A stretch of DNA of 64,000 nt from Alphaproteobacteria bacterium. Its GTDB lineage: Bacteria > Pseudomonadota > Alphaproteobacteria > TMED109. The position numbers were made by a program, and so were the translations under genes. Location: positions 1-64,000 of the forward strand of contig JAJDZX010000124.1 in NCBI GenBank assembly GCA_022824395.1. The letters run 5' to 3'. This document shows, piece by piece, positions 22,092 through 22,394 of the stretch; within the stretch, counting starts at the first letter, position 1; each line of letters starts with the position of its first letter. Under the pieces are notes generated by a model. The model made no database searches, was not told where the DNA came from, and saw only the letters and a list, made by a program, of their open reading frames with translations.

Positions 22092-22394
22092 TGGTGCCGC
22101 CGGAGTGAATTGAACACTCGACCCCACCCTTCGCACCACTGCCGCTTTCGCGACCGCCATCTGCGCCTGTCGCGGCGCATCCGGCGTTTGGTGGTCCGGA
22201 CCATCCCTTGACCCGCGAGGGGTCCCGCCCGTCTGGTCTCTACACCTTCTCGCGCAAGCGCGAGCTTGGCTCGGGATTGGCATGGGCCTCCTGGCCCGCA
22301 GCGTTCCCCGAATTTGAGCGGTTCAGCCCCGGCGATCGCTCGCCGGGCAGGCAATTCCTACCAAGGGTGTGCTCTACCACTGAGCTACGGCGGC
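22092..22394 (-). tRNA. tRNA-Thr (GGU) interrupted by a group I intron
   Basis: On the minus strand the 5' exon is 22394-22360 and the 3' exon 22131-22092, with a 228-nt intervening sequence. Joined, they give a 75-nt cloverleaf with CCA. Acceptor GCCGCCG / CGGCGGC, D-arm GCTC/GAGC, anticodon stem CACCC / GGGTG and T-stem GAGTG / CACTC are all perfect. The loop is TTGGTAA with anticodon GGT (22362-22360). The 5' exon ends in the U of position 36 and the 3' exon starts at A37. The junction is read from base pairing; up to 1-2 nt of ambiguity exists from the repeated A/G residues. No other tRNA-Thr(GGU) is seen in the window. Confidence 0.93.
22132..22359 (-). ncRNA. Group I self-splicing intron in tRNA-Thr anticodon loop
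   Basis: 228 nt, no ORF. Core strands line up with the Azoarcus tRNA-Ile group I intron (IC3 type). P3: CCGCTC pairs with GA..GCGG. P4: the CGGGG strand pairs with the TCCCG strand. The joining segment CCGAGCCAAGCT is present. The P7 region reads GGTGTAGAGACCAGACGG with GACCA pairing later TGGTC, whereas Azoarcus has GACUA/UAGUC: a compensatory change. The 5' exon ends in U, which can form the conserved U-G pair with GCC about 7 nt into the intron (GGU/GCC P1). A strong P2 hairpin (GCCCGGCG/CGCCGGGGC) follows. The intron ends in G. It should be excised by guanosine-initiated splicing during tRNA maturation. Confidence 0.9.

Follow-up and report, generated by a model that had tools for sequence, protein, structure and literature searches.

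Group I introns are spliced by two transesterifications with an external guanosine. The intron of tRNA-Ile(CAU) in Azoarcus, a betaproteobacterial host, is a small group IC3 intron in the anticodon loop; in the group IC3 introns of bacterial tRNAs, GNRA loops on P2 and P9 make tertiary contacts, and an 11-nt tetraloop receptor in P8 is present in some members without strictly defining them. Paquin reportedly described, in 1999, the sporadic occurrence of introns in tRNA-Arg(CCU) and their transposition. In Alphaproteobacteria, group I introns of tRNA-Arg(CCU) have been described from Agrobacterium and from Bartonella bacilliformis (BbgpI), the latter being reported to be self-splicing in vitro and spliced in vivo (PMC7717549). 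The cyanobacterial 'group I introns' described for tRNA-Arg, tRNA-Gly and tRNA-Lys (PMC5733544) were considered as precedents and set aside, since a group I core does not fit into their 22-49 nt. Among the matches listed in the open-access literature, no group I intron of a bacterial tRNA-Thr was found; subscription papers may contain an earlier mention.

The window (the whole stretch of DNA that was analysed, 64,000 nucleotides of contig JAJDZX010000124.1, assembly GCA_022824395.1) contains the only tRNA-Thr(GGU) gene found in its genome, and this gene is almost certainly interrupted by a small IC3-like, self-splicing group I intron of the bacterial tRNA type that has no room for the usual endonuclease gene. 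The tRNA-Arg(CCU) introns are its relatives within the same class of bacteria: the Arg(CCU) loci found here have the same insertion site, between tRNA positions 36 and 37, and a similar core, and a covariance model built in part from them finds the Thr introns. They differ in host tRNA and in the pairing of exon with guide, which is CCU with GGG in Arg(CCU) but GGU with GCC in Thr(GGU). The introns of tRNA-Leu(UAA), one of which (L068) is present in the same genome as the window, are also group I introns of the anticodon loop but are inserted between positions 34 and 35 and have the guide GAGU. The Azoarcus tRNA-Ile(CAU) intron shares the location in the anticodon loop and probably a similar core motif, in a different host tRNA.

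An interrupted tRNA-Thr(GGU) gene

All features of the locus are on the minus strand, and its exons and intron were delimited with ARAGORN and by exon pairing. The 5' exon (22360..22394) comprises tRNA positions 1-36 and ends with the anticodon GGU; the intron (22132..22359), placed also by covariance model R2, is 228 nt long; and the 3' exon (22092..22131) comprises positions 37-76, including an encoded CCA. With introns allowed, ARAGORN reports a tRNA-Thr(ggt) with a 228-nt intron after position 36. The gene is absent from the plain ARAGORN output and from an Rfam scan of the window at gathering thresholds, which returned two ordinary tRNAs only. A preliminary description of this DNA had proposed that the anticodon loop of tRNA-Thr(GGU) is interrupted by a group I intron, and this is borne out by the sequence, by covariance models and by 45 homologous loci. 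Once the 228-nt block is removed, the two halves join as predicted: the acceptor (7/7), anticodon (5/5) and T (5/5) stems are fully paired with G-U allowed, and the joined exons fold as a cloverleaf with the anticodon GGU. The terminal nucleotides named in that description, U just before the 5' splice site and G as the last intron nucleotide, ahead of A37, are both in place, and so are its P2, P3, P4 and P7 pairings. The predicted fold of the window's pre-tRNA is more stable than that of 100 shuffled sequences (z -3.92, none as low), as computed with a program that cannot represent the P3/P7 pseudoknot.

The P2 hairpin (22328..22347), read from the sequence, is followed by the 5' strands of P3 (CCGCTC, 22316..22321) and P4 (22307..22311); the partner strands, placed with the covariation alignment, are at 22225..22230 (P3, GGGCGG) and 22271..22275 (P4). 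P7, the guanosine-binding helix, is formed by GACCA (22234..22238) and TGGTC (22199..22203, again from the alignment), and encloses a P8 hairpin (22210..22224) that is short in the window's genus. GNRA loops are present on both P2 (GCGA) and P9 (GAAA) of the window intron, and a simple rule finds them in 40 (P2) and 41 (P9) of 45 Thr introns. An exact-motif rule for the 11-nt tetraloop receptor of P8, applied to a P8 stretch that was excised too long in several rows, finds it in one of the 45 Thr introns and not in that of the window; the receptor is not counted as support. The designation IC3-like rests on features characteristic of that subgroup together with homology.

Covariance models and covariation of the core

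Model R2 was built from the intron cores of seven tRNA-Leu(UAA) and three tRNA-Arg(CCU) genes of other genomes and contains no Thr intron. It matches the window at 22188..22321 with 113.9 bits (E 2.5e-27, the E-values of these models being rough), the next match in the window having 7.5 bits. The match is beyond chance, because a model without any Thr intron gives this E-value, and it shows that the intron is homologous to those of other tRNAs in the class. R2 also matches all 45 Thr loci found by a pattern scan (below), one of them truncated by a contig end. A second model, R1, was made from 33 cores including that of the window and was used for surveying.

The check with a covariance model that the preliminary description had suggested gave a divided answer: the independent model of alphaproteobacterial tRNA introns recognizes the intron, but the Rfam model Intron_gpI, which had been named for the purpose, does so only below its threshold. 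Searched within a 701-base stretch, the window copy receives 22 bits (E 0.0027), whereas the gathering score, which is a detection threshold and not a structural feature, is 50 bits; RF00028 has no match in the whole genome at E 0.001. Five of the 18 Thr homologues tested, out of 45, pass the Rfam cut-off. Another 18 loci (17 in tRNA-Leu, tRNA-Arg or tRNA-Lys and one in tRNA-Thr) include four that pass, 12 that fall below and two (L072 and L074) that are unmatched at E 0.1, so that a low score with Rfam is nothing unusual among these introns. The Rfam miss of the window intron, which by itself would have told against the proposal, was shown by the dedicated models to be a limit of sensitivity.

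Covariation was assessed in an alignment of 33 cores (21 Thr, nine Leu and three Arg) on a structure comprising P3, P4, P5, P6, P7 and P8. Of 1025 cells, 97.4% are paired, compared with 85.2% in shuffled alignments and at most 48.8% when the structure is slid, a control over which the structure is favoured by having been drawn from the same sequences. Changes on both sides were found in 21 of 32 pairs; the covariation score is 0.361 versus 0.146, none of 500 shuffles scores as high, and none reaches any of five measures. P3, P4, P6, P7 and P8 covary across relatives: P3 is 100% paired, with four of six pairs changed on both sides as the preliminary description had anticipated; P4 has four invariant pairs of five and one changed on both sides; P7 has 99.4% of its cells paired and two of five pairs changed on both sides; and P8 has four pairs, three of them changed on both sides. 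The weakest helix is distal P5 (78.8% paired). The replacement of U-A by C-G that had been noted in P7 recurs among relatives, in which pair 149-208 is UA in 22 of 33 rows and CG in 11. The core thus has conserved P3, P4, P6 and P7 helices and a P3/P7 pseudoknot backed by covariation.

These results bear on whether something other than a group I intron interrupts the gene. tRNA genes are common integration sites, and the insertion could in principle be an integrated mobile element, an archaeal-type intron removed by enzymes or an artefact of assembly. Such an explanation is scarcely credible in view of the group I core recognized by covariance models and of the recurrence of junction and catalytic core in seven genus genomes and in all 45 contigs that the pattern scan yielded (five of these from the genus). 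Nor does the insertion have coding content of the kind expected from an element: the longest frame inside the intron is at most 75 codons, too short for the usual homing-endonuclease gene, and a Pfam scan at E 0.1 of three longer frames, which extend beyond the intron, gave no match.

Distribution and copy number in Alphaproteobacteria

A genome collection described as covering 84,980 species was scanned for a tRNA 5' half ending in YTGGT and followed, 101-151 nt on, by the core motif. The scan yielded 45 contigs with an intron-bearing tRNA-Thr(GGU), of which 43 belong to Alphaproteobacteria and two are titled only 'Proteobacteria'; the pattern fixes part of the tRNA as well as the core motif, so that divergent cases can escape it and the result is no proof of restriction to the class. 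Five of the contigs are from genomes of the window's genus. Named orders among the carriers are Rhodospirillales, Hyphomicrobiales, Rhodobacterales, Acetobacterales and the SAR116 order, and carriers that are named isolates include Acuticoccus, Roseomonas acroporae, Crenalkalicoccus roseus, Pseudaestuariivita rosea and Alkalilacustris brevis. The survey of related genomes that had been proposed at the outset disclosed a pairing of intron and host that is wide in Alphaproteobacteria, a spread that could not be seen from the window.

All but one (L122, truncated) of the 45 scanned genes are complete. In all 45 complete genes (44 scanned plus that of the window), the intron ends with G, exon 2 starts with AA and the three stems are fully paired; the stem pairing is partly selected, exon 2 having been placed by ARAGORN, which seeks stems, but neither the G nor the AA was requested by the pattern or by ARAGORN. 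ARAGORN labels 40 of the 44 complete scanned genes as Thr(ggt) and the other four (L106, L111, L121 and L128) otherwise, though their exon 1 ends with TTGGT. The Thr(GGU) introns are 193-294 nt long (median 219).

Within the window's genus, all seven genomes analysed have the intron; in one of them (G003) the gene is divided between two contigs whose ends share 55 nt. All five of the genus loci compared have the upstream flank of the tRNA in common, and the other flank is shared by two. Among the 28 genomes of the window's family, an intact gene was found in five genomes of one other genus, and in 16 genomes even the 5' half is unmatched. A family member that carries an intact gene (L194) has, besides, a locus (L203, G017:C54:33127-33145) with a tRNA-Thr(GGU) 5' half that the following sequence does not complete, perhaps an integration site or a fragment. 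Elsewhere in the class, an intronless gene (L080, in G098) matches 74 of 75 bases of the window's joined exons and is a model of the empty site. Intronless relatives were also sought in the genus of Roseomonas acroporae, for which only that one genome was returned and recent gain or loss was not seen.

The preliminary description had named a second intact tRNA-Thr(GGU) in the genome as an observation that would count against its reading. No such copy was found among the tRNA hits or by an intact-gene pattern in this draft assembly, which is 92.85% complete and evidently has gaps, because its tRNA list contains no Ile(GAU), Ala(UGC) or Arg(CCU) either, so that a further copy may have been missed. 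Over a wider range, the pattern detects an intact tRNA-Thr(GGU) in one of 47 intron-bearing genomes (G411, the genome of L096) versus 75 of 96 sampled genomes of the class (Fisher p 6.6e-20, relatedness being ignored). Three of the 96 carry the intron, of which G000 and G003 are in both samples and G114 very likely is too; an additional, spurious match occurs in one of the 75 genomes; and the pattern misses genes, in that 21 of the 96 genomes have no match and only three of these have a known Thr(GGU) intron, leaving 18 with neither. In the carriers, the intron-bearing gene thus appears to substitute for an intact one. Because an intact copy is so much rarer in carriers than in the class, the gene probably must be spliced to be of use, and the cell presumably depends on the splicing of its tRNA-Thr(GGU).

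Such dependence would be illusory if the intron were dead, a decayed insertion in a pseudogene, and all threonine codons were read by Thr(UGU) and Thr(CGU). Genes for both of these tRNAs were found in the window's genome, and the low Rfam score of the window copy could be taken as a sign of decay. Dead copies, however, are expected to decay, whereas the exon stems are fully paired in every complete gene and the core helices covary; together with the failure to find an intact copy in 46 of the 47 genomes, this makes a dead intron very unlikely, and a gene that is still spliced remains the preferred reading.

Guide sequences, other hosts and origin

The proposed internal guide sequence of the window intron is GCC (22350..22352), and UGCC occurs within the first 26 nt of all 45 Thr introns. 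UGCC is absent from the same interval in all nine Arg introns but present in 13 of 18 Leu introns, and is therefore weak evidence by itself and not diagnostic. In the same first 26 nt, the match to the exon CCU, UGGG, is found in eight of the nine Arg introns but in a single one of the 45 from Thr genes; the match to the Leu exon, GAGU, is found in all 18 Leu introns and in two from Thr genes. The predicted guide thus varies with the host tRNA within the alphaproteobacterial set. The U that ends the 5' exon is present, and each of the 45 Thr introns offers a candidate G as its partner in P1. In the window intron two GCC registers are possible, the second giving an alternative, longer P1 that the folding program prefers.

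Splicing would most likely begin with pairing of the exon GGU (22360-22362) with the intron GCC, which would create a P1 helix whose U-G wobble marks the 5' splice site. A guanosine bound in P7 would attack after U36, and the freed U36 would in turn attack behind the G that ends the intron. Ligation of U36 and A37 would re-form the anticodon loop UUGGUAA, so that the mature tRNA-Thr(GGU) could read ACC and ACU codons. For the Thr introns this chemistry is inferred, as are its efficiency and any help from proteins.

A survey of 385 genomes of the class with R1 gave matches in 49. Thr(GGU) introns are present in at least eight of the 385, four of them in the window's genus, and the other hosts are tRNA-Leu(UAA), Leu(CAA), Arg(CCU), Lys(UUU), Lys(CUU) and, in two genomes, Thr(CGU); four matches (L183, L186, L189 and L190) were not assigned a host. 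The two tRNA-Thr(CGU) genes (L179 in G254 and L180 in G151, Thr cgt by ARAGORN) have a group I core within introns of 231 and 235 nt, apparently also between positions 36 and 37, and have a GCG that would fit CGU; they make a second threonine isoacceptor a host. Introns of tRNA-Lys follow position 34 or 35 in Lys(UUU) (L170, L173, L174, L175, L178, L181 and L182) and Lys(CUU) (L152, L167, L168 and L187), and all 11 have GGAG near the intron start. No tRNA-Lys group I introns of this kind were found among the matches listed in the open-access literature. Four tRNA-Leu(CAA) genes (L176, L177, L185 and L188) have introns of 274-431 nt, apparently after position 33, with provisional boundaries. 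As for the matches without a host, L189 (G263:C76) consists of a group I core followed by an apparent Leu-type tRNA 3' half, and L190 (G238:C1:392395-392471) is a core for which ARAGORN detects no split tRNA, the adjoining sequence looking protein-coding by eye.

For the intron tree, 87 introns were collected, of which L169, L176 and L182 were dropped for lack of a regular start of P3/P4, and L159 was entered 17 nt short (196 instead of 213 nt). Of 63 further loci considered, 21 were omitted: nine duplicates and 12 without a fitting boundary rule, four of the latter being extra Thr(GGU) copies. The free tree, from an alignment of 180 columns with an unsettled bootstrap and long branches, has five changes of the Thr label, at least three of them forced by well-supported branches; when all 45 Thr introns were constrained together, the likelihood was 4.2 units higher (AU p 0.544). 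Between one and several entries into tRNA-Thr(GGU), the tree neither shows nor rejects a single origin.

The tree bears also on whether the Thr intron of the genus arose as a local copy of the intron that its genome has in tRNA-Leu(UAA). The window's genome does have a Leu(UAA) intron of the same kind, and a clade of the Thr and Leu introns of the genus is not rejected by the AU test (p 0.327). That clade costs 10.9 log-likelihood units, however, and the free tree instead groups the Thr introns of the genus with those of other genomes (L119 and L128; support 99/88), which makes local transposition unlikely. A broader history is a serious possibility, if short of a probable one: a single family of alphaproteobacterial tRNA introns may have moved repeatedly between the anticodon loops of Leu(UAA), Leu(CAA), Arg(CCU), Thr(GGU), Thr(CGU), Lys(UUU) and Lys(CUU) by changes of three or four bases in the guide, after which the Thr(GGU) branch may have displaced the intact gene in many lineages and made the decoding of ACC and ACU dependent on a ribozyme. 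The movement could have been by reverse splicing, which is proposed because the Thr(GGU) introns have no room for the usual homing endonuclease.

The element is of a known kind but in a new host and lineage; it is commoner than could be known from the window, and adds tRNA-Thr(GGU) to the few host tRNAs reported for bacterial group I introns. Plain tRNA scanning missed the gene here and is likely to overlook it in many other species. Since relatives with and without the intron are available for one site, and guides fit their hosts, the spread of endonuclease-free group I introns between tRNA genes becomes directly testable.
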